A stretch of 64,000 bases of DNA from Collinsella tanakaei. GTDB taxonomy: Bacteria > Actinomycetota > Coriobacteriia > Coriobacteriales > Coriobacteriaceae. Below the pieces are notes generated by a model. The model was not told the DNA's origin and ran no database searches. It saw only the letters and a list, made by a program, of their open reading frames with translations. The DNA is taken from NCBI RefSeq assembly GCF_016900375.1, contig NZ_JACJKB010000004.1, positions 1 through 64,000 on the forward strand, in the 5' to 3' direction. This document shows positions 25,277-62,564 of this stretch, one piece after another; position 1 is the first letter of the stretch, and the number at the start of each line of letters is the position of its first letter. The translations under genes and the position numbers were made by a program.

Positions 25277-27455
<2,179 letters not shown>

Positions 27456-28391: not shown

Positions 28392-28484
28392 TCTGCTGCC
28401 CTGTTGCGCAACAGAGTGACACCCTCCGCACCGTACAATCGGCCCAACGACCTGTGGACCCCACCCGAAAAGGCAGACACGACC

Positions 28485-30545: not shown

Positions 30546-30564
30546 CGGCGGGAGTTCGAAAGCA

Positions 30565-30610
30565 AGGGCCGGCGCCCAGAGATCATCTCTCTGGGCGCCG
30601 GCCCTGTTCT
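30565..30610 (+). terminator. terminator of the kinase gene
   Basis: A perfect 18-bp stem (30565-30582 with 30588-30605), 5-base loop, then GTTCTTC. It lies 20 bases past the kinase stop. Confidence 0.8.
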
Positions 30611-30620
30611 TCAGCGCTTG

Positions 30621-30658
30621 ACGAAGGGAGAGACGACTCGCGCCGTCTCTCCCTTCGT
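30621..30658 (-). terminator. terminator of the SLH adhesin gene
   Basis: A perfect 15-bp stem (30621-30635 with 30644-30658), 21 bases past the adhesin stop on the minus strand. The U-run is poor, so it may work in both directions only weakly. It faces the kinase terminator between convergent genes. Confidence 0.6.
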
Positions 30659-30678
30659 AAACGAAAGGGGCTTAGTCG

Positions 30679-33600: not shown

Positions 33601-33801
33601 GGCTTCTTTCAATGTCGCATAGGTCTTTTCGCCTATTTTCGCGACATTTGTAGCCTCGGGTGTCTGCCCGGCAGTGGCCTCGGCTGGCGTCTCCACCGGC
33701 TCTGCCAAAGCAACAGCGGGTGCAACGCCGAGCGTTAGAGCCAGGCCGAGACCGGCGGTCACGGCCAAGCGGGACGCTCCGCCCAACTCGAATCTACTCA
33801 T
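30679..33801 (-). CDS. secreted SLH-anchored adhesin with beta-helix repeats
   Basis: 1040 residues. Signal peptide: charged start, hydrophobic core (RLAVTAGLGLALTLGVAPAV), likely cleavage after ALA at 33. Residues about 55-700 are Gly/Asn/Thr/Ser-rich, with two clear YATLxxAV...TVTLLAD-type units (near 58 and 325), predicting a right-handed beta-helix (pectin-lyase-like) surface domain. An InlB-type repeat follows near 720-775 (LPAPTRPGYTFNGWKAPDGT), then a Bacterial-Ig-like stretch, and three SLH repeats (about 865-1035; SDVKVGAWYHDVVDWAVENG) that bind secondary cell-wall polymers. The part coding for the beta-helix is clearly richer in A+T than the rest of the window, suggesting transfer. 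Its own promoter is at 33862-33890. Confidence 0.85.
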   Translation of the reverse strand: MSRFELGGASRLAVTAGLGLALTLGVAPAVALAEPVETPAEATAGQTPEATNVAKIGEKTYATLKEAIKDVKDHETIELTADVPNAEGISVPSGKNFVIDFGGHTYTLSGPGAGSAGTETQGFQLLKDSNIVFKNGTINIAPNADNIKRIINSYCDVTFENMTFDATHQVGGQDYALSFNNGEAVFKGNTNIVMSEPNAIAFDVCHGWASAYPNVSVSFDGDFYGDIQGSIVYDTNSLENAEINVLGNGSFKSIVLSDQTKKTIASSSNAEPTIVVSGGTFEEQPQKDWLAESVTAVKNETGEWTISKAPEAIASVGNQSYATLEKAVAEASNGDTVTLLADATCVSRITIDNGKSIEVDLAGHDVTFDYDSYFYVKHGKLEIKGDGTVAEGHPYYGPIMIEGAKTNVADYSVVTIGKNVTLEGWSGIFVDYNEDKVAYGVVVTLNGHINSVEDTSGAGGHGIYLQGTIKPTEGYVPKFTLGETATITSVGNGIYAAGYGEWIINGASVSGSTGMEIRAGKLTMSAGSIVGTSIPTQVLPNGNGSTTSGAGLAVAQHTTKLPLDVTITGGNVSGYTAFYESTPENNPKLDVINLAIKGGEFVAINGGTNAAYSGTYEDDVKNGAGFISGGSFSSSVKNYVVDSLNAELHSSDGMYSYYETVEQALAAAKPGDVVKDLSAEDAGETTQVKVTLDYAYDSKKHELNLDSKSTLKLPAPTRPGYTFNGWKAPDGTVYDAGAAYTVTADVALTAQWTKNYVPPTPKPEPEGSEVTITEVDGGKIKVDPERAEKGDTVTVTATADEGKLAWSVSVTDEDGKAIEVKPGEKDGTWTFEMPDGPVTVEAEFVCDGGEACPSHSLSDVKVGAWYHDVVDWAVENGIMTGYEGAGKFGPDDALTRAQLASTLYKAAGCPEVSDADLAAIAAYTDVDSTAWYADAIAWAKAEGIMTGYSDCAAFGPDDILTREQLAVVFWRTAGEPAAEGDAPEFPDASDTSDWADSAVDWAVSTGLLQGYSDTGKLDPLGDLTRAQMAAVMYRQAEDAE

Positions 33802-33809
33802 ATTCTGTT

Positions 33810-33890
33810 CAACTCCTTATATCCGACCCGGAGTCGATGCCTTTTGACATCGTAATATCGAATTATAAGGAGTTGCTCCCTCCTCGTCAA
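33810..33890 (-). promoter_or_regulatory. promoter of the SLH adhesin with overlapping dyad
   Basis: TTGACG (33885-33890), 17 bases, TATAAT (33862-33867): a near-consensus promoter on the minus strand. The 12-base sequence CAACTCCTTATA (33810-33821) and its inverse (33865-33876) form a dyad that covers the -10 and the ribosome site AAGGAG, so it could be an operator, or tie transcription to translation. Confidence 0.75.
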
Positions 33891-34428
33891 TGATTTATGA
33901 GTTTTTACTGTGTTTAGATTGCGTTAAGCGGATTCTGTGGTATACATTATTTCTTTACAGACGACGTCGCAAAACCTTGCCGGTTGGGCGTTCCCGGCAA
34001 CCCATCAAACGCAACAAGCCACACTCGGTGTTGTCACTGGGCCGATCTGATGCCACTTTGGTGTTTCCGCAGATCATCAGGCATACCACGCTGCTTCTGT
34101 CACCAATTCAATCAGATTACAACTCGATAGCACGGCCGGCCGATGTTCGCTTTGACAAACCCCTCTGAACATTCGCGAAATCGTTCAGCGGGATGTGTGC
34201 CTAGTATTCAGGAGTTCTCCCGTTTACAGCAACGCCGCAGGTAGGCTGCTTAACGAAAGTCAGCCTTATAAAGGCTCTTAGCGTGCCAAACTGCCCATTT
34301 TGTGTCATCGGCCTCTCCCCCGCCCCTCCCGGATGCTGAATTTGAATTTGAAATACATGGTGCTGGCTGGCCTATCTCCCAACTATGGGTATGAAATGGA
34401 ATAACTGTCCCATGAAGGAGAATTCTCT
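33891..34428. other. AT-richer gap upstream of the toxin-antitoxin remnant
   Basis: About 540 bases, less GC-rich than the rest. A minus-strand fragment near 34020-34080 reads as a short peptide (GCRERPTGKVLRRRL at its end) that could be a decayed gene tail, but it has no start signal. I see no RNA gene. Confidence 0.4.
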
Positions 34429-34443
34429 ATAACCATACTTCCG

Positions 34444-34731
34444 ATGAAAGAACTGAAGGACACCGCCGGCATCACCCGGCGGTGCGAGGAAGAAAACGAG
34501 CCCATCCACATCACCAAGAACGGCTATGACTGCTTGGTGGTGATGACTTCCAAGACGTTCGAGAAGTACGACCGCGCCCTGAAGCAGGCGGCGCAGCGCG
34601 AACTAGACAGGCAACGTTACTTCGATGAGCCTGTTTCTGATATAGAGGCCGGTTTTGAAGACATCGCTGCGGGACGAACCGCCGATGCATTCGAATCCCT
34701 TGCGGCGCTGAGGGAAAAGCACGGCCTATAG
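34444..34731 (+). CDS. Phd/YefM family antitoxin (start codon uncertain)
   Basis: 95 residues. The N-terminal half is the Phd/YefM DNA-binding fold: MKELKDTAGITRRCEEENEP then IHITKNGYDCLVVM. This class neutralises RelE/ParE or Doc toxins and represses its own operon. AAGGAG lies 23 bases before the ATG, too far; it is 8 bases before an in-frame ATA (34429-34431) that would restore the residues TILP found before this ATG in relatives. So the gene may have lost its original ATG by a G-to-A change, or be translated poorly. The matching toxin downstream is truncated. Confidence 0.75.
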   Translation: MKELKDTAGITRRCEEENEPIHITKNGYDCLVVMTSKTFEKYDRALKQAAQRELDRQRYFDEPVSDIEAGFEDIAAGRTADAFESLAALREKHGL

Positions 34732-34843
34732 CATCCATCACACCGCGCGGTTCAACAAGCAGCTCGAAGGCACGGTCGAATACCTGTTGCATACCCTCTG
34801 CAGCCCTCAGGCGGCAAAATCGCTTCTCAACGAATACGAATGA
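34712..34843 (+). pseudogene. truncated RelE/ParE-type toxin remnant
   Basis: Overlapping the end of the antitoxin gene in another frame, codons for AYSIHHTARFNKQLEGTVEY then LLHTLCSPQAAKSLLNEYE are readable, ending at TGA 34841-34843. This is the N-terminal helix pair of a RelE/ParE toxin (about 40 of about 100 residues). The frame has no ATG/GTG/TTG start, an in-frame TGA just upstream, and no downstream continuation. The toxin half is therefore dead. Confidence 0.6.
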
Positions 34844-34867
34844 GCGCTCCATATTCGGAATACGCAC

Positions 34868-34900
34868 GCGGCCTCCCGTCCTGCTTGGACGGGAGGCCGC
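34868..34900 (-). terminator. terminator of the SLH cysteine protease gene
   Basis: A perfect 14-bp stem (34868-34881 with 34887-34900), 5-base loop. On the minus strand it follows the protease stop by about 67 bases. No U-run is seen. Confidence 0.5.
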
Positions 34901-34967
34901 CGAACTCATAGGGCGCCGTCGTCTCGCGGGGCGACAGACGCCCCCGTACCGACAGGAGCGCTCGTGA

Positions 34968-37490
34968 TTATCCCTCGGCCAGCGCGCCGGCATCGACGGC
35001 GTTCAGCATCATGGCCGCCATCTCGGCACGCGTGATGTCGCGTACGGCATCGAGCGTGCGCGTGCCGTCCTCGCCCTCGACGCCGTTGATCACGCCGGCC
35101 TCGACCGCCCAGGCGACGGCCGGGCGCGCCCAATCGGACACGCCGTCGCCGTCCACATAGCCATCGAGCACCGAGGTGTCCTGTTCGGAGAGGTCGGCTC
35201 CGGCCGCGTTGGCGATGATGCAGGCGAACTGCTCGCGCGTGAGCGGATCGCCCACGCCGAACTTGTCGGAGCCGTCGTACCCGTTGATGAGCTCGCTCGC
35301 AACGACCCAGTTGACCGCGTTGGAGTACCACTCGTCCTGGACGACATCGGAGCGGTCGACAGCCGGCGCGTCCGTGGCGCCCTCGCCCAGCGCGTTCCAC
35401 ATGACCATGGCGGCCTGCTCGCGCAAGAGCTTGTGCTCGGGGCCGAACGTGCCGTCGCCGTAGCCGCCCATGAAGCCGAGCCCGGTCACGCGGATGACTT
35501 CGTCGTGGTACCAAGCGTCTGCCGGCACGTCGGTATACGGCTCATCGACCGGCACGGCGTACGCCTTGATGGAGGGGTTGTCGATATCGATGACGCCGCC
35601 CAGCGCCCCCGACGTCTCCTCGGCCGCGTCGGACCAGTCCACCCAATCACCCTTGGCCATCATGAAGCTCTCGCCGTCGTTCACGACGCCCTTGAAATAT
35701 CCCGGCACCTGCAGCTGGATGGCATCGTGGGTCGCCGTGGCGAGCCACTCTTCCTTCGTGGCGAGGTAGGCGTCGACCTCCTCGTCAGAAGCGTCAGGAT
35801 GCTCCGCGCGGTACTCCGTCACCAGCTGATTGACGAGCTGGCTCCTCAGGGCATGCGTGGACTCCTCCTGCTGCTCCAGCTGGCTGATGGCCAGGTCCCG
35901 GTAGGCGTCGTTGAATGCGGCCTGCGCGAGGATGTAATAGCCGTCGGGGCCCTGCATGGTCACGACCACCGAGAAGCGCTCGCCCTCATCGAAGTGCAGC
36001 TTGGCTCGGTCGGCTTCGGGAATCGTGGCCAGATGGTATCCACCGAACTCATAGGTCTCCTCGAGCGTCAGCGCCAGTTCGCCATCGGTGGGGTCGGCGG
36101 CATCGTCGGCAAGGCGGTACACCTCGTAGGTCACCTTGGTCTGCGGCGTGGAGGTCTCGCACGAAAGGCTCGTCAGGTCCTGCGGCTCGGCGGCGGTGAA
36201 CACGTTTGCCGCGCTCGCCTTGTCGTCATAGGGCAGGGCGTTCGCCTGCTCCGTCGGCAGGTAATCGTACTGGTTGACGATATACTGACCGTTTTGGTCC
36301 GTCTCGCGCCCGGTCAAGTCGAAGTCGAAGGCCTCGACCGTCACGATGGACTGGTCGTAATACGACAGGTAGAAATAGCCGTTGTCACCCCATGCGAACT
36401 TGTTGGGGAACTCCCCGTCCGCAGAGCCCCAGCTGTTCTTGACGATCCATGCGCCATCGGCGGGAGGCTGGTGCCCCGCGTTGAAGTTCTCCTTGGAATA
36501 GGAGTCATCCCAGCCCACGATGGTCACCATGTGGTTAAGCGAAGCCGGCTCATAGGTGTAATGCGCCCAGGTATCGGTGTTGATGTAGGTGTTCTCCGAT
36601 GCCTGGCCGGGCATGGACTGATCGCCATGGAAGCTGACGGCCAGGGCGCGCCCCGCGAGAATCTGCTCCTTCATCGCGGTCGTGGCCAGCTCGTTGTACG
36701 TATACGTATAGGAGGTGCCATCGCTGCTCAGCGTCGCGGGCGAGGGCAGGATGAACGACTCCTCGAGCGCGGCGACGGATGTGCCCCTCAGGCTCTCGGC
36801 AAGCGACCAGGTGCCCTGATCGGACCAGAACACGCCGCTCGGGTCCACAATCCCCTCGTCGTTTTGGTACGGCGCGTCCGATTCGAGCACCGGACCGATG
36901 CCGCTCGAGAACAGAGACGTCGCATACGTCGAGTATCCGCTCCTGTTGTATGTGGCGTTTTCCAGCGGGTACCCCAAGAGGTCCTCCGCCAGGGTGGGGT
37001 CATAGAGCGCGTCCGCCTCGGTCAGCGCGTTGTAGCCGCCCTCGCCGCCCTGGTTGTCGTAGTTGTCGTCGCCCACGGGAATATGGTTGGACGTGAAGTA
37101 GGCCAGATGGCGCTCGGAGAGGTCAAACCCGGTATCGGCGTACGTCTGGCCGGCCTCGGACAGGATGCTCGTCTCGGATGCCGCGATCGCCCCGAAGCCC
37201 CAGCACGTCCCCCAGGGATTCTGGAACTTGACGGGCGTCACCACGCCGAGGTCGCGCAGGTCGTACCTGGAGGGCAGAGCGTCTTTGGCCGTCTGCAGGC
37301 GGATGGTATCGGCGTTCGCGCTGAAGCTGTAGGCCTCGTTCGTCCTTGCCGCAAGCTCGCGGTCCACGTCGAGCCCCAGCGCGGGCTGGGCCGTCACGCC
37401 GAGCGCCGCCGTGGCGACGCCCAGCGCAAGCGCACCACGCAGGATCACAGAACGGGTATGTTCCTTCCAATAGCTGACCGGATGCATCAT
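34968..37490 (-). CDS. secreted papain-like cysteine protease with SLH repeats
   Basis: About 841 residues from the ATG pair at 37485-37490 (AAGGA 8-9 bases upstream). Signal peptide (about 1-40: VILRGALALGVATAALGV then AQPALG). C1 peptidase domain (about 70-400): active-site Gln and Cys in VKFQNPWGTCWGFGA (Cys about 96), His in NHMVTIVGWDDSY, Asn in WIVKNSWGSADGEFPNKF. A central beta-rich region follows (about 400-640; it includes a loop of unknown function rich in Gln/Glu), then three SLH repeats to the C-terminus (DVPADAWYHDEVIRVTGLGF, QDEWYSNAVNWVVASELING, VSDWARPAVAWAVEAGVING). It is predicted to be held on the wall and cut surface or host proteins. Confidence 0.88.
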   Translation of the reverse strand: MMHPVSYWKEHTRSVILRGALALGVATAALGVTAQPALGLDVDRELAARTNEAYSFSANADTIRLQTAKDALPSRYDLRDLGVVTPVKFQNPWGTCWGFGAIAASETSILSEAGQTYADTGFDLSERHLAYFTSNHIPVGDDNYDNQGGEGGYNALTEADALYDPTLAEDLLGYPLENATYNRSGYSTYATSLFSSGIGPVLESDAPYQNDEGIVDPSGVFWSDQGTWSLAESLRGTSVAALEESFILPSPATLSSDGTSYTYTYNELATTAMKEQILAGRALAVSFHGDQSMPGQASENTYINTDTWAHYTYEPASLNHMVTIVGWDDSYSKENFNAGHQPPADGAWIVKNSWGSADGEFPNKFAWGDNGYFYLSYYDQSIVTVEAFDFDLTGRETDQNGQYIVNQYDYLPTEQANALPYDDKASAANVFTAAEPQDLTSLSCETSTPQTKVTYEVYRLADDAADPTDGELALTLEETYEFGGYHLATIPEADRAKLHFDEGERFSVVVTMQGPDGYYILAQAAFNDAYRDLAISQLEQQEESTHALRSQLVNQLVTEYRAEHPDASDEEVDAYLATKEEWLATATHDAIQLQVPGYFKGVVNDGESFMMAKGDWVDWSDAAEETSGALGGVIDIDNPSIKAYAVPVDEPYTDVPADAWYHDEVIRVTGLGFMGGYGDGTFGPEHKLLREQAAMVMWNALGEGATDAPAVDRSDVVQDEWYSNAVNWVVASELINGYDGSDKFGVGDPLTREQFACIIANAAGADLSEQDTSVLDGYVDGDGVSDWARPAVAWAVEAGVINGVEGEDGTRTLDAVRDITRAEMAAMMLNAVDAGALAEG

Positions 37491-37681
37491 GCTGGCAATC
37501 CTTCCTCTCAACCAAGCAGCAGCCCAGATGGAAACACGATCTTCCCATCTTAGCAAACGGTTGTCATCGGAATGAAAAGCGAGCCTGTCGGTCGCATATC
37601 CGCTCCGAACGGCGCGTCGGACACGGCGATGCGGCAGCGCGACCAAGGATGGGTTGAAACGAACCCGTCCCCAAACATCCC

Positions 37682-37717
37682 AAAAAAACGCTCCGGCACG
37701 CAAGCGCGCCGGAGCGT
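37682..37717 (-). terminator. terminator of the DUF1846 gene
   Basis: A perfect 10-bp GC-rich stem (37688-37697 with 37708-37717) followed on the minus strand by seven T's. It lies 26 bases past the stop. Confidence 0.9.
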
Positions 37718-37742
37718 CATGTCACCATAGAACAGAGCGCCC

Positions 37743-39224
37743 TTAGCGGTGATACATCCCGGCGCGCTCGTATTTGGGCTCGCAGCACACGTTGATGCCG
37801 AGCTTGCGGTAGAGCTCCTCGTCGGTGGCGGAGATGATCACCGAGAAGAACGCGTCGCAGCCGCGCAGCTTCTTCAGCCCCTCGAGCACGCGCGCGGCCA
37901 CCTCGCTCGTAGCCGAGGTGATGGACAGCGCGATGAGCGTCTCGTCGGAATGCAGACGCGGGTTCACGCTGCCCAGACGGCGGGTCTTGAGGCGCTGGAT
38001 GGGCTCGATGGCGTCATCGGAGATGACCTCGAGCTCCATGTCCACGCCCGTCACGGCCTTGAGGGCGTTCATGAGCAGCGAGCTGGCCGCGCCCAGGCGC
38101 GCGGAAGTCTTGCCCGTCACGACGGAGCCGTCGGGCATCACCATGGCGCCCGCAGGGGAGCCGGTGGTCTGCTCCTTCAGCAACGCAGCGGAGCGGGCGG
38201 GCGAGAAGTCCTTGTCCACCCCCGCCTTCTTCATGATGCTCTTCAGGCGCGCGACCTGCTCGGCGCCGGCGCCGGTGCGCTTAACCTGCTCGGCAGCCGT
38301 GAAGTAGCGGCGAACGATCTCCATCTTGGCCGCCTCGCGGCAGGCCTCGTCGTCCACGATGGCATAGCCCGCCATATTGACGCCCATATCCGTGGGGCTC
38401 TGGTAGGGGCTCTCGCCCATGATCTTCTCCATGAGCGACTTGACCACAGGGAACGCCTCGACGTCACGGTTGTAGTTGACGGTCGTCTTGCCGTAGGCCT
38501 CCAGGTGGAAGGGGTCGATGATGTTGGAGTCGTCCAGATCGACCGTGGCGGCCTCGTAGGCGATGTTCACCGGATGCGAAAGCGGGAGGTTCCAGATGGG
38601 GAACGTCTCGAACTTGGCGTAGCCGGCGTCGACGCCGCGCTTGTGCTCGTGATAGAGCTGCGACAGGCAGGTGGCGAGCTTGCCCGAACCGGGGCCGGGG
38701 GCGGTCACGACCACCAGCGGACGGGAAGTCTCGATGTAGTCGTTCTTGCCATAACCCTCATCGGACACCACGAGGTCGATGTCGTGCGGATAGCCCTCGA
38801 TAGGATAGTGCAGGTAGCACGTGATGCCCAGCGACTCGAGGCGGCGGCGGAACGCATCGGCTGCGCCCTGGCCCGCGTACTGGGTGAGCACCACGGAGCT
38901 CACGAGGAACCCGTAGCTGCGGAAGATATCGGTCAGGCGTAGCACGTCCTCGTCGTAGGTGATGCCGAGGTCGCTGCGGGCACGGTTTTTCTCGATGTCG
39001 CCCGCATTGATGGCGATAACGATCTCGACGTCGTCGGAGAGGCTCTTCAGCATGCGGAACTTGCTGTCGGGCTCGAAGCCGGGAAGCACGCGGCTCGCAT
39101 GGTAGTCGTCGAACAGCTTGCCGCCGAACTCGAGGTAGAGCTTGCCGCCGAACTGGGCGATGCGCTCCTTGATGTGCTCGGCTTGCAGGCTGATGTACTT
39201 ATCGTTATCGAATCCCTTGCGCAT
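37743..39224 (-). CDS. DUF1846 (UPF0371) family protein
   Basis: 493 residues, the normal length for this family. It starts MRKGFDNDKYISLQAEHIKE after GGAGGAG at about 9 bases; the open frame upstream (over 100 codons) has no ribosome site and is rejected. Family features: FGGKLYLEFGGKLFDDYHAS, the P-loop-like VVVTAPGPGSGKLATCLSQL, and the C-terminal VISDDAIEPIQRLKTRRLGS. The crystal structure of a streptococcal member is known and the fold resembles nucleotide-binding enzymes; the substrate is not known. It is a single-gene transcript with a strong terminator. Confidence 0.92.
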   Translation of the reverse strand: MRKGFDNDKYISLQAEHIKERIAQFGGKLYLEFGGKLFDDYHASRVLPGFEPDSKFRMLKSLSDDVEIVIAINAGDIEKNRARSDLGITYDEDVLRLTDIFRSYGFLVSSVVLTQYAGQGAADAFRRRLESLGITCYLHYPIEGYPHDIDLVVSDEGYGKNDYIETSRPLVVVTAPGPGSGKLATCLSQLYHEHKRGVDAGYAKFETFPIWNLPLSHPVNIAYEAATVDLDDSNIIDPFHLEAYGKTTVNYNRDVEAFPVVKSLMEKIMGESPYQSPTDMGVNMAGYAIVDDEACREAAKMEIVRRYFTAAEQVKRTGAGAEQVARLKSIMKKAGVDKDFSPARSAALLKEQTTGSPAGAMVMPDGSVVTGKTSARLGAASSLLMNALKAVTGVDMELEVISDDAIEPIQRLKTRRLGSVNPRLHSDETLIALSITSATSEVAARVLEGLKKLRGCDAFFSVIISATDEELYRKLGINVCCEPKYERAGMYHR

Positions 39225-53690: not shown

Positions 53691-53784
53691 CGTGCAGCCA
53701 CCCGCTGCTCGGATGGCAGCGCATCGCGCATGTGGCATTTGGGTATTACCCAGGTAAGCAACCGCAATGCGTCGAGGAGGCATG

Positions 53785-55170
53785 ATGAAGCTGCGTCGCC
53801 CCTTCCCCTTTATCCTGCTGATCGCCATCCTGCTCATCCTGCTTGTCGGCGGCCTGCTGTCCATCAAAGACCGCGTGCTCGTCCGCCGCACGGAATCCGA
53901 CGCTGCCGATCTCGCTGCAACCGAGCTCACGGATACGGTGTCCGCCCCTGCCCAGCAGGCTGACGAGTCCCATGACGCCGAGGGCGCACGGGCGCTCGCG
54001 GAGCTCGCCCTCTCGCTGCTGCAAAACGATGCGTCCGTCGACAAGGGGGCAAACGCCCTCGTGTCCCCGCTGTCCATCGCAAGCGCGCTCGGCCTTGCCG
54101 CAAACGGCGCCGAGGGTGAAACGTTGCAGCAGATGGAAACGGTACTTGGCATGGACGTCGGCTCGCTCAATGCGTACCTCAACACGCAGCGAACCCGCAC
54201 CGGATCCGATGCGCACGACGGCAAGGGCAATCCCGCCGTCACGCTCTCCAACTCCATCTGGATTCGCGATACGCCTGAGTTCGAGGCGAGCGAGGCGTTC
54301 CTGCAGGACGCCGTCAGCTGGTACGGCGCATCGGTCTTCAGCGCGCCCTTCGACGATTCCACCGTGCGCGACATCAACGCCTGGGTGCGCGCAGGCACGG
54401 ACGGCATGATCGACGGCATCCTGGACGAGAGCTCCCCGATATCCGAGGAGGCGATCATGTTCCTGGTGAACGCGCTCGCCTTCGAGGCCGCCTGGGAGGA
54501 CCCCATCGACGACGGCTTCGTCGAGACGGCCTCCTTCACCTGCGAGGACGGATCCGAGCAGGACGTCGAGCTCATGTACAGCTTCGAGAATCGCTATTTC
54601 GAGATGGACCTCGCAAGCGGAGCGGTTGCCGAAAGCGAGGAGGAATCCGCCGCCATAGCCGATGGAGAGCGCCTTGTGGGCTTCGCCAAGCCCTATCAGG
54701 GTGGCACCTACGCCTTCGTCGCCCTTCTGCCGCCCGAAGGCACGACGGTCTCCGAGACGGTTGCCCAGCTTTCGGGCGATACGCTCGGCGCGCTGCTCGA
54801 AAGCAGCTGGTACGCCCCGGTCGAGGCGTACCTGCCTGCCTTCGCCTACGACTATAGCACCCAGTTGGACGATACCCTGAAGGCACTCGGCATGGTCGAC
54901 GCCTTCAACCCGAATGCCGCGGACTTCTCTGGCATGGGAGCCGGCCTGCCGCTCAACATCTCTCGCGTCCTCCACAAGACGCATATCGAGGTCGACCAGG
55001 AAGGCACCAGCGCCGCCGCGGCGACGATCGTGGAGCTGGAAGCGGGATCATCCGCGCCCGGTGAAGAGATCCCGCCCAAGGTGGTGCGCCTCGACCGCCC
55101 CTTCATCTACCTGATCGTCGACACCCGCACGAATACCCCGCTGTTCGTCGGCGCCCTCATGCAGCCCTGA
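53785..55170 (+). CDS. membrane-anchored serpin protease inhibitor
   Basis: Serine/cysteine protease inhibitor fold, rare in bacteria but known from gut actinobacteria. About 461 residues from the ATG at 53785 (GGAGG at 4 bases; ATGs at 53782 and 53767 are alternatives). One N-terminal helix (PFPFILLIAILLILLVGGLL), no lipobox, so probably a signal anchor; serpin domain about 70-461 with NALVSPLSIASALGLAANGA, the breach/shutter motif NALAFEAAWEDPI (usual NAVYFKGxW), the hinge EGTSAAAATIVE, and C-terminal RPFIYLIVDTRTNTPLFVG. The hinge with small residues (TSAAAAT) indicates an inhibitory serpin. P1 is in the segment ELEAGSSAPG and cannot be fixed. It may protect the cell from host or self proteases. 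Confidence 0.93.
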   Translation: MKLRRPFPFILLIAILLILLVGGLLSIKDRVLVRRTESDAADLAATELTDTVSAPAQQADESHDAEGARALAELALSLLQNDASVDKGANALVSPLSIASALGLAANGAEGETLQQMETVLGMDVGSLNAYLNTQRTRTGSDAHDGKGNPAVTLSNSIWIRDTPEFEASEAFLQDAVSWYGASVFSAPFDDSTVRDINAWVRAGTDGMIDGILDESSPISEEAIMFLVNALAFEAAWEDPIDDGFVETASFTCEDGSEQDVELMYSFENRYFEMDLASGAVAESEEESAAIADGERLVGFAKPYQGGTYAFVALLPPEGTTVSETVAQLSGDTLGALLESSWYAPVEAYLPAFAYDYSTQLDDTLKALGMVDAFNPNAADFSGMGAGLPLNISRVLHKTHIEVDQEGTSAAAATIVELEAGSSAPGEEIPPKVVRLDRPFIYLIVDTRTNTPLFVGALMQP

Positions 55171-55223
55171 CGCACCATACGGGGCGTCCGATAATGGCGA
55201 TGCCGCCCTTCGGCGGAGGCCGC

Positions 55224-55376
55224 TGGTCAGAATTGCAGCTTGAGCATTTTAGGAACCCCCTGTCGGAGCCTCTTCGGAGCTCGAGAGAGGTCGATTTCCC
55301 GTAATCGAGCGCCAAATTGGGCACCCTGCCACCCTAAAAGCGCCCCGCGGCAATGCTCAAGTTACATTTTCTGCCA
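55224..55376. repeat. dispersed inverted-repeat element, copy C
   Basis: 153 bp. Left arm TGGTCAGAATTGCAGCTTGA then GCATTTTAGGAACCCCCTG; right arm reads inward on the other strand as TGGCAGAAAATGTAACTTGA then GCATT. It lies between convergent genes, 53 bases past the serpin stop and 64 past the transglutaminase stop. Its interior resembles that of copy D (CTCGA...GTCGATTT), so C and D are the closest pair. Confidence 0.9.
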
Positions 55377-55440
55377 GGCGCCGCCGCAGACCCGCGCGAA
55401 GAACCCGGCAACCTGCCGCAACGGGGCAACAGGGGGCCTT

Positions 55441-56238
55441 CTACCGATCGGCCTCGACGACCGAAGCGGAAACCCACTGGGTCTGCTCCACCCTGCCGCC
55501 CGAGAAGACGCCTATGTCCAGCATGCAGTCGCGGTAATCGCGGCCGTGCGCGATGGAGATGTAGTCATCGCCCACAAGCCTGTCGTGCGTGGGGTCGAGC
55601 CCGATCCAACGGCCCTCCTGGTAGACCTCGACCCACGCATGCGTCGCGCCCTCGCCGCCCAGCATGCCGGCGATATAGCGCGCCTCCAGGCCGATATGGC
55701 GGCAGATCGCGAGCATGACGTGAGCGTAGTCTTGGCAGACACCCGCACCCAGACCGAGCGCCTCCTCCGCCGTCGTTCGCACCGTCGTCGCACCCGGAGT
55801 GTAGACAAACGACCGGTACACCTCGTGCATGACGACGTGTGCGCGGTCGAGGGGGCATGCATCCTCCAGCTCCTCGAGCTGCGGGGCGATACGCGCCGCG
55901 AGCGCATCGAGATGCGGTCCCCATCCGGTGAGCTGCGATTCAAATCGGTAGAGCGGCTTTTCGGGCTCCGATTTCGTGTGCTCATTGTCCACAAACGCCG
56001 TACCCGTCACCCGATAGCGAAACTCATCATGCGCCTCGGGGATGAACCCCGTGACGACAAGCGAATCGAAGGAGTCGACGAGCGTCTCCAGCGGCACATC
56101 CGGCTCCAGATGCAAATCCACGTCCACGACCTGCTGCCGCGGACCGGTAACGGGGATGCAGCGCAGCTGGAACCGATGGGAGGTCACCGGCTCGCTGAAC
56201 GTAAGCTTCATCTCGTAATCGAATCGTAGTTTCTTCAC
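55441..56238 (-). CDS. transglutaminase-like cysteine peptidase
   Basis: 265 residues. N-terminal beta-rich domain (about 1-110; the bacterial transglutaminase N-domain), then the transglutaminase core with the triad: Cys in GAGVCQDYAHV (about residue 168), His in GATHAWVEVY, Asp in GLDPTHDRL. Such proteins act as peptidases or peptide ligases. It starts at GTG after GGAG, with 63 bases from the ATP-grasp/alpha-E gene upstream on the same strand. In many bacteria transglutaminase, alpha-E and ATP-grasp genes travel together, which supports a joint function. No signal peptide. Confidence 0.9.
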   Translation of the reverse strand: MKKLRFDYEMKLTFSEPVTSHRFQLRCIPVTGPRQQVVDVDLHLEPDVPLETLVDSFDSLVVTGFIPEAHDEFRYRVTGTAFVDNEHTKSEPEKPLYRFESQLTGWGPHLDALAARIAPQLEELEDACPLDRAHVVMHEVYRSFVYTPGATTVRTTAEEALGLGAGVCQDYAHVMLAICRHIGLEARYIAGMLGGEGATHAWVEVYQEGRWIGLDPTHDRLVGDDYISIAHGRDYRDCMLDIGVFSGGRVEQTQWVSASVVEADR

Positions 56239-56301
56239 TCCGGCTCCCTTGCCAACCTGATAAGCCGCACCTCAGACTCGGCTCGACACACCCTCGCGAT
56301 C

Positions 56302-58491
56302 TTACGAAAAGACAGGTTCCCGCTCGAGCTTGCCCGCGTCGAGGTGACCGTCCCACGCCATGCCCTCGGCAAGATCGCCACGGCGCCCCCAAACCGATGC
56401 GAGACGGTCGGCGACCTCGATGTACCCACGGACCATCAACGTCGGAACGATCTCGTCCAAGCCGTCGGCATAGCACTGGGGCAGCGGACGGTCGCCCAAC
56501 TGAAGCACGTAGCCACACAGTTTCCTCATCGGCGCGAGCATCATGTCCGTCGACAGGTTGAAACGGCTGTACAGATCCAGGCGCTCAAGGTACTTGCCGA
56601 TAAACACGAGCGCCTTGAACGACGGGTCGGCCGCGGAGTTCTCGACCCCGCCCCAGAACGCATGGAGGTTATCGGCGACGTCGCGCTGGCTGAACAGGCT
56701 CTCCTCATCCGACGGGCAAGCCGCGGCATCATCGATCTTCGCCAGTGCGAGCTCGATGTATTGCAGCAGGCGCGTGCTCAGCTCCGGCCGCAGGATAACC
56801 GCATTGTTGAACGCCGCCGCCATGGCGCTCCTCACGGAATCGGGGTTGTCCTGATCGTAGAGAAACGCATGGATGAACGCGTCGAAGTCATCGAAATCCT
56901 CGGGCAGATCGAGCGCGCGGGCAAAGGGGCGGAACGCCTCGACATCCGAATCGGCAACACGATCGTAGAACGGGAAGAAGACGTTGAGCGTCGTGTACAC
57001 GCGCTCGGTATAGCGGCCGAGCCAGAAGAGGTTGTCCGCCTTGCTGGCGGTCACCAGGGCGATCGTCCGATGGCGCGCATGGTCGAGCGCGCTGCGAACC
57101 CGCTCGCGAACCCCGTTCTCCGACGACGCCGCATCCTCCGAGGCGAGCACCCAGGTGTCTTTGAACCCGCCGCCCTGCGAGGAGTTGACGATCATCTCCC
57201 CAGGGACAGACGAGTACCTGGTCAGGCCTGAATACCATACGTGCGTATGCTTGCCGGTCAGCACGAAGGCGCGCAGGTCGCACTTGCGCGGCACGCGCTC
57301 GCCTGTCTTCTGGTCGATCACGTCGAGATCGCGGAAGTTGATGACCTCCTGGGCGATGAAGCGGCGCGGCTCCGCCTCGATGCGGCTGGCAAGGTCGACG
57401 AGCTGATCCTTGGTGAGGGAGGCGCCGAAGACCACGCCGTAGCCGCCCGCCTCGGCGACATCCTTGATGACAAGCTCGTCCAGGCGCGACAGCACCAGCT
57501 TGCGGTCCTCATCGAACTGGGGAAGATAGGTGGGGGCGTTTTGCAGAATCGGCTCCTCGTCCAGGTAATAGCGGATCATGCGGGGCACGAAGTAGTACAT
57601 CGCCTTGTCGTCCGCCACGCCGTTGCCCGGCGCGTTCACGATGGCGACGTTGCCCGCACGATATGCCGCAAGCAGGCCGGGCACGCCGATGACCGAGTCC
57701 GGATTGAAGGCAAAGGGGTCGAGGTACTCGTCGGACAGGCGCCGGTACACTACGCCGACCCGATGCCGCTCGCCCGCATAGTCGCGCAGGTAGAGCTTAT
57801 TGCCCACGACCTCGAGATCCTCGGGGAAGGCAAGCTCGGCACCGGTCATCTCCGCCAGATACGCATGCTCGAAGAAGGCCGAGTTGTAGCGCCCGGGCGA
57901 GAGGACCACCGCGATACCGCCGCAGGACACGAAATCCATCGAGCGGCGCAGGAGGCGCGGGTAGTCGCGGTTGTCGCGCAGGGGAACCCGGCGAAACTGC
58001 CTCGGGCAGATCCGGCGTTCGATCTCGCGCACGAACAGCGGGTAGCTCGCTCCGGATGGAATGCGCAGGTTGTCCTCGAGCACCCACCAGGTGCCATCGT
58101 CACCCTGGACAAGGTCCTCGCCCGCGATGTGCGCGTAGACCCCACCGGGCGGCGTGACGCCGTTCACCTGCGGAAGATAGGCTGGCGAGGTGTAGATGTA
58201 CTCCTCCGGCACGATACCGTCGCGCACGATGCGCTTATCCCCATAGACGTCGAGCAGAAACGCGTTCAGAGCGCGCACGCGCTGCTTCAGCCCCGCCTCG
58301 AGCCGATCGTACTCCTTTGCGGGAATGATGCGCGGCACAGAATCGTATGGGAAGAGCTGGTCGTGATAGATGCCCTGCTTGTAGATACCGAAGCGCACGC
58401 CGTTGCGCGCAAGCTCGCGGTTGATGGATGATCGATGCGATGCCAAGCTGGTGGCAAGCTCGCGGGCAGCGGTTTCGATTCCCATAGCCAT
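56302..58491 (-). CDS. fused circularly permuted ATP-grasp and alpha-E protein
   Basis: 729 residues combining two proteins that are usually separate. Residues about 1-470 are a circularly permuted ATP-grasp (DUF404/DUF407): GVRFGIYKQGIYHDQLFPYD, VLEDNLRIPSGASYPLF, VLSPGRYNSAFFEHAYLA, PGNGVADDKAMYYFVP, VIKDVAEAGGYGVVFG (the ATP lysine), RKCDLRAFVL, and NSSQGGGFKDTWVL. Residues about 480-720 are alpha-E (DUF403), all-helical: ASKADNLFWLGRYTERVYTTLNVFFPFYDRV near its start, and FIGKYLERLDLYSRFNLSTDMM. These families are predicted to ligate peptides; products are not known. It is upstream of the transglutaminase gene. Codon 3 (ATG) may be the true start because AAGG is 8 bases before it. Confidence 0.9.
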   Translation of the reverse strand: MAMGIETAARELATSLASHRSSINRELARNGVRFGIYKQGIYHDQLFPYDSVPRIIPAKEYDRLEAGLKQRVRALNAFLLDVYGDKRIVRDGIVPEEYIYTSPAYLPQVNGVTPPGGVYAHIAGEDLVQGDDGTWWVLEDNLRIPSGASYPLFVREIERRICPRQFRRVPLRDNRDYPRLLRRSMDFVSCGGIAVVLSPGRYNSAFFEHAYLAEMTGAELAFPEDLEVVGNKLYLRDYAGERHRVGVVYRRLSDEYLDPFAFNPDSVIGVPGLLAAYRAGNVAIVNAPGNGVADDKAMYYFVPRMIRYYLDEEPILQNAPTYLPQFDEDRKLVLSRLDELVIKDVAEAGGYGVVFGASLTKDQLVDLASRIEAEPRRFIAQEVINFRDLDVIDQKTGERVPRKCDLRAFVLTGKHTHVWYSGLTRYSSVPGEMIVNSSQGGGFKDTWVLASEDAASSENGVRERVRSALDHARHRTIALVTASKADNLFWLGRYTERVYTTLNVFFPFYDRVADSDVEAFRPFARALDLPEDFDDFDAFIHAFLYDQDNPDSVRSAMAAAFNNAVILRPELSTRLLQYIELALAKIDDAAACPSDEESLFSQRDVADNLHAFWGGVENSAADPSFKALVFIGKYLERLDLYSRFNLSTDMMLAPMRKLCGYVLQLGDRPLPQCYADGLDEIVPTLMVRGYIEVADRLASVWGRRGDLAEGMAWDGHLDAGKLEREPVFS

Positions 58492-58698
58492 AGCCTTCCG
58501 ATACGGGGTCGGTCACGATGGCCACACGATATCGGTGCTGTGTTTCCGGCTTGCGTCGAGGGGGTATCCGAAATCGAAAAAGAACGTTGCCTGCTGAATA
58601 CAAGATTTCGCAATCGCCTCGAAATCGCGGCTGAACCGTAGGTGCACAACGCGCTCGCAGCGACAAAGGACCCGCGGCTGACCCTCAGCGAGACCCGC

Positions 58699-58850
58699 TG
58701 GCTAAAACTGCAACTTGAGCATTTTAGAGACCCCCTGCAGACGCCTTCCGGGACTCGAATCGGATCGATTTTCCGCTCTCTACTGCCCTATTCGGCGTCC
58801 AAGCGTCTTTATAGCTCCCCACAGGAATGCTCAAGTTACATTTTCTGCCA
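58699..58850. repeat. dispersed inverted-repeat element, copy D
   Basis: 152 bp. Left arm TGGCTAAAACTGCAACTTGA then GCATTTTAGAGACCCCCTG; right arm, read inward, TGGCAGAAAATGTAACTTGA then GCATT. AACTTGAGCATT pairs perfectly between the arms. It is 101 bases past the glycosyltransferase stop and 207 bases upstream of the ATP-grasp start, so C and D bracket that gene pair. Confidence 0.9.
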
Positions 58851-58918
58851 GGTGCCGCCGTGAACCCGCGTGGAAAGCCCATCCCCTTGTCGCAGCGGAG
58901 CGAAAAGCGGCGCAAAGC

Positions 58919-58951: not shown

Positions 58952-59998
58952 CTAGTTGAACTTGAAGATCTTGCTCGCCAGATGGTACAAGCCGATCGTG
59001 GTCTTCTCGCCCGCGCGGCTGGGCAGGTTCGTGCCCACGCCCATGAGGCCGTAGCGCGCGTGGCGGTACATGCGCTCATCGTAGGCCTTGAGGTCGTGCC
59101 ACAGGTCGCGCAGCCATGTCTTGGCCTCCGGGTTGTCCGAGAGCTTGGAGAACACCGAGCAGATGGACATCATCATCGTGAAGTAGTGCATCATGTACGA
59201 GCGCAGGCGCGGGGGCTCCACCTCGTCGTAGAGGTGATACGCGTTCATCATGATGCGCGTGATGCGGAACTGCTGGTCCAGGCGCTTGACCATCGTGGCC
59301 TCGTTCACGCTCTGGCCCTCGCGGCCGATAAAGTAGCGATAAAGGTCGATATCGGCGTAGTAGAGCGTCTTGCAGCGCGGCAGCGGCACGTAAGCGTAGA
59401 TATTGTCCACGTAGAACGTGTGCGCCGGCAGCGGCAGGTCGGCCTCGCGCAGCACATCTGTGCGGTAGCACAGGCTGTGCATCAGCAGGTTCTGGTCGGG
59501 ACGGAAACGCCCGACCTCGTTCCAGGTGAAGATCTTCTTGCGCGGAAGAGCCGTGCGGTAGCCGATCGTCTGGTGCGTGCCCTCGTGGACCTTCTCGTAC
59601 ACGTAGTTCGAGATGAACAGGTCCACGCGGGTGCCGCGCTCCTCGAAGCCGCGCAGGATCGTCAGCATCGTAGAGAGCGCCGAGGCGTCGAGCCAGTCGT
59701 CGGAGTCCACGACCTTGTAGTAGGTACCGGTGGCCTCGCGCAGGCCGGAGAGGACGGCGATGCCGTGACCGCCGTTCTCCTGGTGCACCGCGCGAATGAT
59801 GCCCGGATAGCGGGCCTCCCACTCGTCGGCCTTGGCGGGCGTCTCGTCGACGCTGCCGTCGTCCACGATGATGATCTCGATGTCCGAGGCGTAGCTCGAG
59901 CCCTCGAGAATCGACGTGATGCAGCGGTCCATATCGGCAGCCGCGTTGTACGACGGGATGCCGAACGTAACTACCTTGTGCGTAGCGGAACTAGGCAT
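58952..59998 (-). CDS. family 2 glycosyltransferase
   Basis: 348 residues from the ATG at 59996-59998, which overlaps the glf stop (ATGCCTAG) and so is probably translationally coupled; an earlier in-frame ATG at 60014-60016 is possible. GT-A fold: VTFGIPSYNAAADMDRCITS, the nucleotide-binding VDDGSVDETPAKADEW, ENGGHGIAVLSGLREATGTY and the metal-binding DSDDWLD. The C-terminal part (about 200-348) is helical without clear membrane segments. Sugar unknown; because glf precedes it, a galactofuranosyl transferase for a surface glycan is a fair guess. A terminator follows at once. Confidence 0.85.
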   Translation of the reverse strand: MPSSATHKVVTFGIPSYNAAADMDRCITSILEGSSYASDIEIIIVDDGSVDETPAKADEWEARYPGIIRAVHQENGGHGIAVLSGLREATGTYYKVVDSDDWLDASALSTMLTILRGFEERGTRVDLFISNYVYEKVHEGTHQTIGYRTALPRKKIFTWNEVGRFRPDQNLLMHSLCYRTDVLREADLPLPAHTFYVDNIYAYVPLPRCKTLYYADIDLYRYFIGREGQSVNEATMVKRLDQQFRITRIMMNAYHLYDEVEPPRLRSYMMHYFTMMMSICSVFSKLSDNPEAKTWLRDLWHDLKAYDERMYRHARYGLMGVGTNLPSRAGEKTTIGLYHLASKIFKFN

Positions 59999-61193
59999 GG
60001 CAGGCGATGATCTCATCCGACAGCGTGAGGGCGGAATCCGTCACGGCGTCCATGTCGTAGTAGCGGTACTCGGCCAGACGGCCCACCGGGTGGAAGTTGG
60101 TGAGGTTGACCACGCGGTCGAGGTAGCGCTCGTACAGGGCGCGGTTCTCGGGGTCGAGGATCGCATAGTACGGCGTCTGGCCGCTGCCGGGCTCGTAGGC
60201 GTGGCTGTACTCCTTCATGATGGTGGTCTTGCCGGGCACCACCTGACCGGTCATGTTCTTGAACTCAGTGATGCGCGTGAAGTCCTCGCTCACCGTGTAG
60301 TTCACGGTGCCGACCGGCTGGTACTGGTCGACGTCGAGGGTCTCGAACTTCATGTCGAGGGTGCGGTACGGAAGCGCGCCCAGATCGAGGCCGAACAGCT
60401 CATCGAGCGGGCCGGTGTAGACGATCTCGCCGCCGTACACCTTGCCGCACACGCTGACGCTCGTCTCGCCGATCTCGAAGATGTCGCGGGCGTCCACGTT
60501 CACGAACACGTCGATCAGGTCGTGATCGAGCATGTTCTCGAACAGGTGCGTATAGCCCTGGGCGGGCATGCCCTGGAAGGGGGCCTGCGGGAAGTAACGG
60601 TCGTCATCGCCGATGAACACGGGCACGCGGCCGGTGACCGAGGGATCGATCTGATCGGGGGTCTGGCCCCACTGCTTCATCGTGTAGTGGAGGAAGACGT
60701 TCTCGTACACGTAGTCGGCGATCTCGACGAGCTCGGGGTCGTTCTTGGAGCGCAGCTCCATGATAGGGACCTTCTTGTCCTCACCGAAGGTGTCGACGAG
60801 CTTGCGGTACAGCTGCTCGCCGCGCTCCTCGCCGAAGGCGAGCTTCATGCTCTGGTGGTTGAACGGAACGGGCATGAGCGTGCCGTGGATGTTGGCAAGC
60901 ACCTTGTGCTGGTAGTCCGTCCACTCCGTGAAGCGCGAGAGGAAGTTATGGACGCGCTCGTTGAAGGTGTGGTAGATGTGCGGTCCATACAGGTGAATGA
61001 GAATGCCGGCCTCATCCAGGCAATCGTAGGCGTTACCGGCGATGTGATTCCTGCGCTCGAGCACGGCGACACGGAACCCCGAGGTCTCCGCAAGGCGACG
61101 GGCGCACACGGCGCCAGCGTAGCCCGCGCCGACAACGATCATGTCGTACGCATCGGGATTGAAGTCTTGCGGAAGTCCAGACGTGACCTGCAT
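59991..61193 (-). CDS. glf: UDP-galactopyranose mutase
   Basis: 400 residues from the ATG preceded by AAGGAG at 5-6 bases; the 28 in-frame codons upstream are not coding. The FAD flavoenzyme converts UDP-galactopyranose to UDP-galactofuranose. N-terminal dinucleotide fold MIVVGAGYAGAVCARRLAE, RRNHIAGNAYDCLDEAGI, YGPHIYHTFNERVHNFL, the KQWGQTPDQIDPSVTGRVPV substrate segment, and C-terminal HPVGRLAEYRYYDMD. Galactofuranose occurs in bacterial surface polymers but not in mammals. It forms an operon with the glycosyltransferase. A -10 (TATAAT, 61264-61269) lies upstream. Confidence 0.95.
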   Translation of the reverse strand: MQVTSGLPQDFNPDAYDMIVVGAGYAGAVCARRLAETSGFRVAVLERRNHIAGNAYDCLDEAGILIHLYGPHIYHTFNERVHNFLSRFTEWTDYQHKVLANIHGTLMPVPFNHQSMKLAFGEERGEQLYRKLVDTFGEDKKVPIMELRSKNDPELVEIADYVYENVFLHYTMKQWGQTPDQIDPSVTGRVPVFIGDDDRYFPQAPFQGMPAQGYTHLFENMLDHDLIDVFVNVDARDIFEIGETSVSVCGKVYGGEIVYTGPLDELFGLDLGALPYRTLDMKFETLDVDQYQPVGTVNYTVSEDFTRITEFKNMTGQVVPGKTTIMKEYSHAYEPGSGQTPYYAILDPENRALYERYLDRVVNLTNFHPVGRLAEYRYYDMDAVTDSALTLSDEIIACHA

Positions 61194-61351: not shown

Positions 61352-62338
61352 ATGAGCGATTTCCTGAACCGTATGAAGGCGGCCGCCAAGGCCGACCTCA
61401 AGACCATCGTGCTGCCTGAGGGCGAGGATCCCCGCACCATCGAGGCTGCCAAGAAGATCGTCGAGGAGGGCCTCGCCAACCTCGTCATCCTGGGCAAGCC
61501 CGAGGAGATCGACATCGAGGGCGTCACCGTCATCGACCCGACGAGCCCCGATGCCCCCAAGCACGAGGAGTACGCGCAGAAGTTCGCCGAGCTCCGCGCC
61601 AAGAAGGGCGTGACCATCGAGCAGGCCCGCGCCCAGGTCATGGACGCCACCTACTACGGCACCATGATGGTCAAGATGGGCGACGCCGACGGCCTCGTCT
61701 CCGGCGCCTGCCACTCCACCGCCAACACCCTGCGCCCGGCGCTCCAGATCCTGAAGACCGCCCCCGGCACCAAGCTCGTGTCCGCCTTCATGGTCATGTG
61801 CACCCAGACGCCCGAGTTCGGCGCCGACGGCACCCTCGTGTTCGCCGACTGCGGCCTGAACATCGACCCGACCTCCGACGAGCTGTCCGAGATCGCCATC
61901 GCCTCGGCCAACTCCTTCAAGACCTTCATGGGCGATGTCGAGCCCAAGGTCGCCATGCTCTCCTACTCCACCATGGGCTCCGCCGGCGGCGACACCGCCA
62001 AGAAGGTCCAGGAGGCCACCGCGTTCGCCAAGGAGAAGGCGCCTGAGCTCGCCGTCGACGGCGATCTGCAGCTCGATGCCGCCATCGTGCCGAGCGTCGC
62101 TTCGCTGAAGGCCCCCGAGTCCAAGGTCGCCGGCCACGCCAACGTGCTCGTGTTCCCGAACCTCGAGTGCGGCAACATCGGCTACAAGCTGGTCCAGCGC
62201 TTCGGCCGCGCCGAGGCCTACGGCCCCATCCTGCAGGGCATCGCCAAGCCGGTGAACGACCTGTCCCGCGGCTGCTCCGCCGACGACATCGTGGGTGTCG
62301 TGGCCATCACCGCCGTCCAGGCGCAGATGGCCGAGTAG
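61352..62338 (+). CDS. pta: phosphate acetyltransferase
   Basis: 328 residues from the ATG after AAGGAG. Converts acetyl-CoA and phosphate to acetyl phosphate, which acetate kinase uses to make ATP in fermentation. Short Pta type without the P-loop regulatory domain of E. coli. Motifs: TIVLPEGEDPRTIEAAKKI, YGTMMVKMGDADGLVSGACHSTANTLRPALQ, DCGLNIDPTSDELSEIA, LSYSTMGSAGG, DAAIVPSVASLKAPES, VFPNLECGNIGYKLVQRF, GPILQGIAKPVNDLSRGC. No ackA follows in this window. Strong codon bias is consistent with high expression. Confidence 0.97.
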   Translation: MSDFLNRMKAAAKADLKTIVLPEGEDPRTIEAAKKIVEEGLANLVILGKPEEIDIEGVTVIDPTSPDAPKHEEYAQKFAELRAKKGVTIEQARAQVMDATYYGTMMVKMGDADGLVSGACHSTANTLRPALQILKTAPGTKLVSAFMVMCTQTPEFGADGTLVFADCGLNIDPTSDELSEIAIASANSFKTFMGDVEPKVAMLSYSTMGSAGGDTAKKVQEATAFAKEKAPELAVDGDLQLDAAIVPSVASLKAPESKVAGHANVLVFPNLECGNIGYKLVQRFGRAEAYGPILQGIAKPVNDLSRGCSADDIVGVVAITAVQAQMAE

Positions 62339-62361
62339 CCTCCGCGCTCCGCTGACCTGAC

Positions 62362-62448
62362 CGGAAGCCCCCGGAACGGATCCACGCGCGCGTCCTCGCC
62401 CTACGGGCTGCGGGATTGCGCGCTTAGGATTCCGTTCCGGGGGCTTCC
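62362..62448 (+). terminator. long hairpin after pta
   Basis: Perfect 18-bp arms (62362-62379 with 62431-62448) closing an 87-base structure with an inner GC-rich stem, followed by TGCGTTTACT. It lies 23 bases past pta. It is larger than usual for a terminator, but placed like one. Confidence 0.65.
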
Positions 62449-62564
62449 TGCGTTTACTCGGTTGGAGCGCGGGGGCTGCTCGGCCAGCTGCGAGGGTGCG
62501 GCGATGGCGCAGCGAGCTTGCTGGGAGCTTGGTTGAGGCGGTGACAGGCTGACGCAGGGCTCGG

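Follow-up and report, generated by a model that had tools for sequence, protein, structure and literature searches.

We analysed a 64,000-nucleotide stretch of Collinsella tanakaei DNA (NCBI RefSeq assembly GCF_016900375.1, contig NZ_JACJKB010000004.1, positions 1 to 64,000 of the forward strand; this whole stretch is the window), in which two neighbouring genes, one for a transglutaminase-like protein and one for a fused circularly permuted ATP-grasp/alpha-E protein, lie between two copies, C and D, of a short element with two inverted arms. Comparison with related genomes indicates that the gene pair was acquired laterally, and the reading that we favour, at about an even call, is that a laterally gained operon entered a hot spot of gene turnover, and that a 236-bp unit with a native element was doubled at both of its edges on entry, leaving an old footprint rather than a self-moving cassette. 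The observations behind it are the anatomy of the locus (Table 1), the absence of the pair from relatives, its foreign phylogeny, the relation between C and D, and the spacing of the arms within the elements. The repeat is the more novel part of the finding than the gene pair.

Origin of the gene pair

The preliminary description of this DNA had placed the genes between repeat copies C and D and within the circularly permuted ATP-grasp/alpha-E/transglutaminase group, and both statements hold: domain matches with arms on either side confirm the first, and ATP-grasp, alpha-E and transglutaminase domains in adjacent genes, with scores over the gathering cut-offs, confirm the second. Structure matches were to 3n6x for the ATP-grasp part and to 3isr for the transglutaminase part. 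The motifs GVCQDYAH, THAWVEV and DPTHD, read by eye and not from an alignment to a solved enzyme, are legible in the transglutaminase reading frame, and the catalytic residues of transglutaminases are Cys, His and Asp. The two genes, both on the minus strand with 63 bp between them, probably form one operon.

The genus was sampled with 43 genomes, this one and 42 congeners, and presence of the pair was scored by a search for the ATP-grasp protein only, the transglutaminase having no search of its own. No ATP-grasp match was found anywhere in 40 of the 42 congeners (E <= 0.001). The site was read in ten of them (G029, G014, G035, G041, G040, G039, G036, G038, G021 and G013), and the pair is missing from it in all ten; in G029, G014, G035 and G041, the match ends of the flanking serpin and family 2 glycosyltransferase (GT2) lie 82, 147, 422 and 391 bp apart, respectively. 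The two congeners with an ATP-grasp homologue, G014 and G036, carry it elsewhere in the genome, with ATP-grasp and alpha-E in separate frames and, by eye, an amylase-type enzyme and a cation-efflux protein as neighbours. Other cargo occupies the site in relatives. In G039, HydF and two radical-SAM genes (L096 1341-5337) are located between a transporter and the glycosyltransferase, and no spaced inverted repeat was found at the edges of this insert, direct repeats being outside that test; inverted repeats of other sequence lie at the same site in G035, G041, G040 and G013, and a multi-arm array in G038. The site between transporter or serpin and the conserved glycosyltransferase is a gene-turnover hot spot.

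A tree of the ATP-grasp protein places the protein of the window in a 100/100 clade with proteins from G063, which is another genus of the same family (Coriobacteriaceae), Olsenella profusa (G276), Bifidobacterium psychraerophilum, B. aquikefiri and Pseudoscardovia radai, and the matches in these clade members extend through both the ATP-grasp and the alpha-E domains. The homologues of G014 and G036 are in a different clade. The tree keeps 34 rows; G213 (partial), L027 (same contig as G276), L031 and L032 were dropped, and it is also without L225, L227 and, except as named here, eight class-wide matches lacking a locus. Since its neighbours in the tree belong to another genus of the family and to Olsenella, Bifidobacterium and Pseudoscardovia, we infer lateral acquisition of the pair, apparently from other gut bacteria. 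That the pair is an addition to this species' lineage, at a site empty of it in relatives, is supported by its absence from all ten sites read and by this phylogeny foreign to the genus.

The codon usage of the pair, which was to be checked against its neighbours, is only mildly atypical: the values are low (0.18 and 0.31), but they overlap with those of malQ (0.26), Maf (0.35) and the serpin (0.36), neighbours that were themselves included in the codon-usage reference. Codon usage as proof of foreign origin was dropped because of this overlap. As a separate observation, the serpin was found in only 6 of the 42 congeners and is evolving far more quickly than the genes beside it, with a fourfold-site distance to G029 of 1.08, versus 0.36-0.47 in three neighbours, at 66% protein identity.

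Table 1. Features of the locus, in window coordinates
Feature	Position	Strand	Evidence
Serpin, left neighbour	53767..55170	+	PF00079 E 7.8e-75; adjoins GT2 in G029, G014, G035, G041
Unit C, 236-bp direct-repeat unit containing inverted-repeat element	55202..55437		Alignment to 58677-58911, one 1-nt gap
Element C, left arm	55224..55248	+	Arm pattern, 1 mismatch
Element C, right arm (arm spacing 113)	55352..55376	-	Arm pattern, 0 mismatches
Transglutaminase-like protein, 265 amino acids	55441..56238	-	PF01841 E 2e-19, PF08379 E 2.3e-10; 3isr E 1.7e-12
Fused circularly permuted ATP-grasp/alpha-E protein, 729 amino acids	56302..58491	-	PF04174 E 2.8e-141, PF14403 E 5.7e-139, PF04168 E 9.2e-18; 3n6x E 2.5e-118
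Unit D, second direct copy of the 236-bp unit	58677..58911		Alignment to unit C
Element D, left arm	58699..58723	+	Arm pattern, 0 mismatches
Element D, right arm (arm spacing 112)	58826..58850	-	Arm pattern, 0 mismatches
GT2, right neighbour	58952..60016	-	Present in 43/43 genus genomes

The bracket formed by copies C and D

Copy C (55223-55377; left arm 55223-55248, 26-nt right arm 55352-55377) lies between the stop codons of the convergent transglutaminase and serpin genes. Copy D (58698-58851; left arm 58698-58723, right arm 58826-58851, the same 26-nt right arm as in C) precedes the ATP-grasp start by about 207 bp and follows the GT2 stop at about 100 bp. The two are direct copies of a 236-bp unit (236 aligned columns, one gap, about 70% identical) that extends 58 nt to the right of the arms, and these right flanks are alike (0 of 2000 shuffles as good). 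Their interiors score 25, the best of 78 pairs, followed by 19; C and D are thus the most alike of the family, as first described, among the 13 copies compared, three copies found later being left out of this comparison. Because the resemblance extends beyond the inverted repeat, a shared history of C and D is supported, and the bracket is probably the duplication footprint of an insertion. The C-D distance of 0.40 resembles the fourfold-site distance between this genome and G029 in PPK, GT2 and UGM (0.36-0.47).

Several points speak against a doubling on entry. Between the left flanks of C and D the likeness is weak, with 15 of 25 ungapped positions matching (binomial 0.0008 at an assumed match rate of 0.28), and their local alignment is no better than shuffles (1872 of 2000 as good). 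The fourfold distance to G029 varies by gene among the five measured (PTA 0.15, serpin 1.08), which makes the dating of C and D loose. With 16 copies placed at random, 29% of simulations put two of them within 3.5 kb of each other, and the intergenic sequence is too diverged to reveal junctions or target duplications.

The pair had been described as a possible mobile cassette, with the expectation that relatives would show a clean absence with one repeat left behind. Such a leftover repeat was found in none of the ten congeners read, and the arm was not detected at up to 3 mismatches in any of the 42 congeners, nor in 64 other family genomes among which these 42 are counted. Across 396 genomes of the class it occurs only in this genome, apart from one single match in G263 (2 mismatches); G063 and G276, the nearest sampled relatives of the pair, are without it, Bifidobacterium being outside this search. 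Between copies D and e (the latter at 66.8 kb) lie 8 kb of genes collinear with those of G029, which counts against the repeats as carriers. The missing leftover repeat, the missing arm in relatives, the chance proximity, the D-e bracket and the hot spot together make the bracket a probable duplication footprint rather than a proven moving cassette. Foreign addition and shared history of C and D thus remain of the cassette idea, whereas the absent leftover, the lack of arms at transposon distance (see Discussion) and the identity of only about 70% oppose it; the repeats mark the insertion, and movement of the pair by them is unproven.

A second addition in the window, about 10.7 kb at 27040-37749, is missing in G029, G041 and G040 (about 100-140 bp there). 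It encodes an FHA protein, a protein kinase that carries DUF6273 and two surface proteins with S-layer homology, of which one has a papain-like domain; no repeat copy was found at its edges. At positions 49-154, the window also contains an inverted repeat of other sequence with at least 23 bp per arm, its 60-bp gap being the floor of the finder. In contrast to the species-specific elements, a further inverted repeat (62322-62492), past the phosphotransacetylase gene, has an equivalent in G029 (contig C9, 49292-49457).

The repeat family

The repeat family is native, species-specific, short and intergenic. The arm pattern has 15 matches in this genome, a draft assembly of 87 contigs, and a looser pattern (up to 3 mismatches) finds 30 arms; the reversed controls gave 0 in both cases. 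These make up 16 copies, 14 with both arms among the 30 and two with one weaker arm, and each copy consists of two inverted 25-bp arms of the form TGGCARAAAWTGYARCTTGAGCATT. Arm positions 1, 14, 18, 20, 21 and 25 are identical in 32 of 32 arms, which is partly circular because 30 of them were found with a pattern naming those letters. Among copies with equal spacing, interior identity is 24 to 44%, whichever orientation is taken (nine comparisons among 7 of the 16 copies, at spacings 113 and 123), C and D being the exception. The arm spacings—13 from the pair search and three calculated from arm coordinates—are 112, 113 (four copies), 122 (three), 123 (three), 124, 144, 154, 155 and 165, and the strongest period between 9 and 13 bp is 10.50 bp (R 0.937, 16 copies). 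With the five size classes taken as single draws, 47 of 50,000 random sets were equal or better (52 of 20,000 with classes at least 8 bp apart), probabilities that are indicative because the size classes were defined by eye; with whole-number draws for 13 copies, 2 of 20,000 random sets matched the phasing.

Ten of 13 copies inspected for gene context are clear of called genes, and a crude gene caller runs an open reading frame into B, e and C6; the elements show no fixed position relative to gene orientation. Elements A and e are missing from the matching sites of G029, G041 and G040, and B from those of G041 and G040; B and e are outside stretches collinear in relatives. At A, B and e this genome is 308 to 384 bp longer than the relatives, which exceeds the arm span and, together with the flanks of C and D, suggests that what was inserted may exceed the inverted repeat in size. 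Beside four elements (L012, L013, L014 and L022) we noted a motif like TTTTGTACC or its complement, possibly a second repeat. No work on such repeats in Collinsella or Coriobacteria was among the literature matches listed.

Arms are conserved and interiors little so, and the two arms of a copy match each other only weakly better than arms of different copies: mismatches within versus between copies are 6.4 versus 6.9 for 13 copies (3293 of 20,000 permutations) and 4.9 versus 5.8 for 16 copies (672 of 20,000), a weak tendency, and 5 of the 16 copies have arms matching with 0-2 mismatches. These properties favour putative protein-recognition sites over an RNA hairpin, and spacing and arms fit paired sites for a DNA-looping protein. 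No transposase or regulator turned up, no family-specific search for either having been made. In Rfam, no gathering-level match covers the elements, the only one in the window being RNase P; one sub-threshold match (E 0.11) lies between the ATP-grasp start and D. We rejected an RNA element on the Rfam result and the weak arm matching within copies, and dropped an integron attC, judged by its core motifs alone.

Paired-arm families in other Collinsella species

Every stretch tried has more spaced inverted repeats than its shuffled sequence, as in 400 kb of G040 (69 versus 18) and 160 kb of G014 (35 versus 1), and some of these repeats fall in coding sequence. The same two-arm architecture with other arm sequences was found in four congeners: six pairs in G040, all at spacing 106 (12 of 13 arm matches of its main family are paired), three pairs at 108 in G013, three at 110 in G041, and 20 pairs genome-wide in G014, of which 19 are spaced at 181-183 and the last, at 162, is shorter by about two turns (7 of 47 arms in this family are without a partner at 3 mismatches). 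One pattern from G013 was uninformative because of its short length, with 523 matches versus 283 shuffled. Constant spacing in most of these families indicates fixed length, not phasing; two further two-member families step by 11 (132 and 143 in G014, 211 and 200 in G040). Helical stepping therefore rests on the family of this genome and on single members in congeners. The G040 interiors are 26 to 62% identical with recognisable common stretches, so that they may be under some constraint, or younger.

The same genomes also contain repeats of another kind: in L125 and L127 (G040:C8, at about 54.4 kb and 87.1 kb), a short motif like TGTCAGTACAGAGTT forms arrays, in both orientations and at intervals of about 20 bp. 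G014:C8 contains at 75131-75780 a perfect, insertion sequence (IS)-like inverted duplication of at least 295 bp, where the 60-bp gap is again the finder's floor.

Discussion

The course of events that we favour would begin with a lateral transfer of the operon after the lineage had split from its nearest sampled congeners. The elements of this lineage would each offer two inverted arms, resembling protein-binding sites and held in helical phase, and the 236-bp unit around one of them would have been doubled at the operon edges on entry, most simply by recombination at the element. By now, the bracket would be too diverged to recombine well. The operon most likely encodes an amide ligase with a transglutaminase-like module, in which the ATP-grasp protein would activate a carboxylate as an acyl phosphate and form an amide, and the cysteine enzyme would cut or transfer such an amide bond.

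A possible, if doubtful, alternative is that the operon and the elements arrived independently, the operon via ordinary recombination in the hot spot and the two elements by separate entry into the new gaps, earlier or later. The varied cargo and foreign inverted repeats at this site in relatives are in its favour, as are the native genes between D and e and the clustering of elements: contig 24, which makes up 8% of the genome, carries 6 of the 16 copies (binomial 0.001, a pattern noticed only afterwards). What it leaves unexpected is that C and D are the closest of the 13 copies and have a common flank beyond the arms, unless the mobile unit exceeds the arms, an escape that the extra sequence at A, B and e keeps possible.

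We think it unlikely that two elements resembling miniature inverted-repeat transposable elements (MITEs) moved the operon as one composite unit with a transposase acting in trans. The elements have the terminal inverted repeats, the short length and the dispersed intergenic copies (16) of MITEs, they are present or missing between species, and the direct-repeat bracket is at the edges of the addition; helical phasing is needed by short transposons for synapsis (as stated in the available part of PMC3464196), and integrons flanked on both sides by MITEs, as well as resistance genes mobilised by MITEs, have been reported (in the available part of PMC10969869). Against this, no arm lies at IS or transposon distance in this draft genome, where 28 of 30 arms form pairs no longer than 205 bp and the remaining two pair with weaker arms, nor do any of the listed arms in the stretches of G040, G013, G041 and G014. 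An autonomous parent was rejected on these grounds, and ends common to such an element were not found in this genome, the arm itself being missing from the other family genomes. No target-site duplication was seen by eye between filled and empty sites, which are strongly diverged; near-identical recent copies are lacking, as even C and D, the closest of the 78 pairs, differ by about 30%; and neither a blastn search of phages and plasmids with D nor an exact 23-nt pattern run on viral contigs gave a match. Vertical inheritance of an ancestral pair with loss in other species is very improbable, for although homologues are spread over the order and, mostly matching in the ATP-grasp part only, occur in 38 of 396 class genomes (E <= 1e-100, this one included), the protein has the fused architecture, belongs to a well-supported foreign clade and is missing in nearly all congeners.

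More widely, and tentatively, the genus may carry species-specific families of paired arms—inverted sites, each about 17-28 bp long, whose distance is fixed or steps with the helix while the interior is freer—as a bacterial counterpart of the internal eliminated sequences of Paramecium, brought together by a co-evolving transposase, recombinase or looping regulator that bends the DNA in between, with C and D as a composite that escorted the operon into the chromosome.

The gene pair is a new member of a known, uncharacterised amidoligase group, apparently travelling between gut Actinobacteria. This group with ATP-grasp, alpha-E and transglutaminase goes back to Iyer et al. (2009), as cited in PMC6376114; the available passages of PMC3597751 place CP_ATPgrasp_1, Alpha-E and Bact_transglu_N together, and those of PMC6376114 describe the trio with Anbu, leave circular permutation unstated, report phosphate release by the ATP-grasp protein of the Anbu operon and call the proposed roles unconfirmed. 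Our locus likewise combines a circularly permuted ATP-grasp with alpha-E and transglutaminase in adjacent genes, but ATP-grasp and alpha-E are one protein here and split in the version of the two congeners. There is no Anbu among the annotated neighbours of the pair, and no genome search for it was made.

With bacterial MITEs and MITE-bracketed cassettes, as described in the available part of PMC10969869, the elements share short length, intergenic position, inverted terminal arms, presence or absence between related genomes, and two copies around foreign genes. They differ in that the interiors are little conserved among the copies compared, the spacing follows helical steps, no parent IS was found, no target duplication was seen and the bracketing copies are about 30% diverged.

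The repeats matter more than the pair, as spacing in 10.5-bp steps around a little-conserved interior would be a sign of DNA looping legible in sequence only and, if true, a route to the proteins that bind such elements and to testing whether those move genes. Looping repressors such as LacI and AraC bind operator pairs with about 100-200 bp between the two sites, and the activity of such pairs varies with helical phase. The available part of PMC3464196 cites these operator pairs and describes helical steps for short transposons, operator pairs and the internal eliminated sequences of Paramecium, short sequences whose sizes step by one helical turn, explained there by looping between bound ends. 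Our elements share two-site spacing and helical phase with the LacI and AraC operators, whereas their arms are inverted, they are species-specific and they have no fixed place relative to gene orientation. With the Paramecium sequences, as far as that source describes them, they have in common that short elements change in size by helical turns, and they differ in being bacterial, with 16 copies, 25-bp arms and no known excision.

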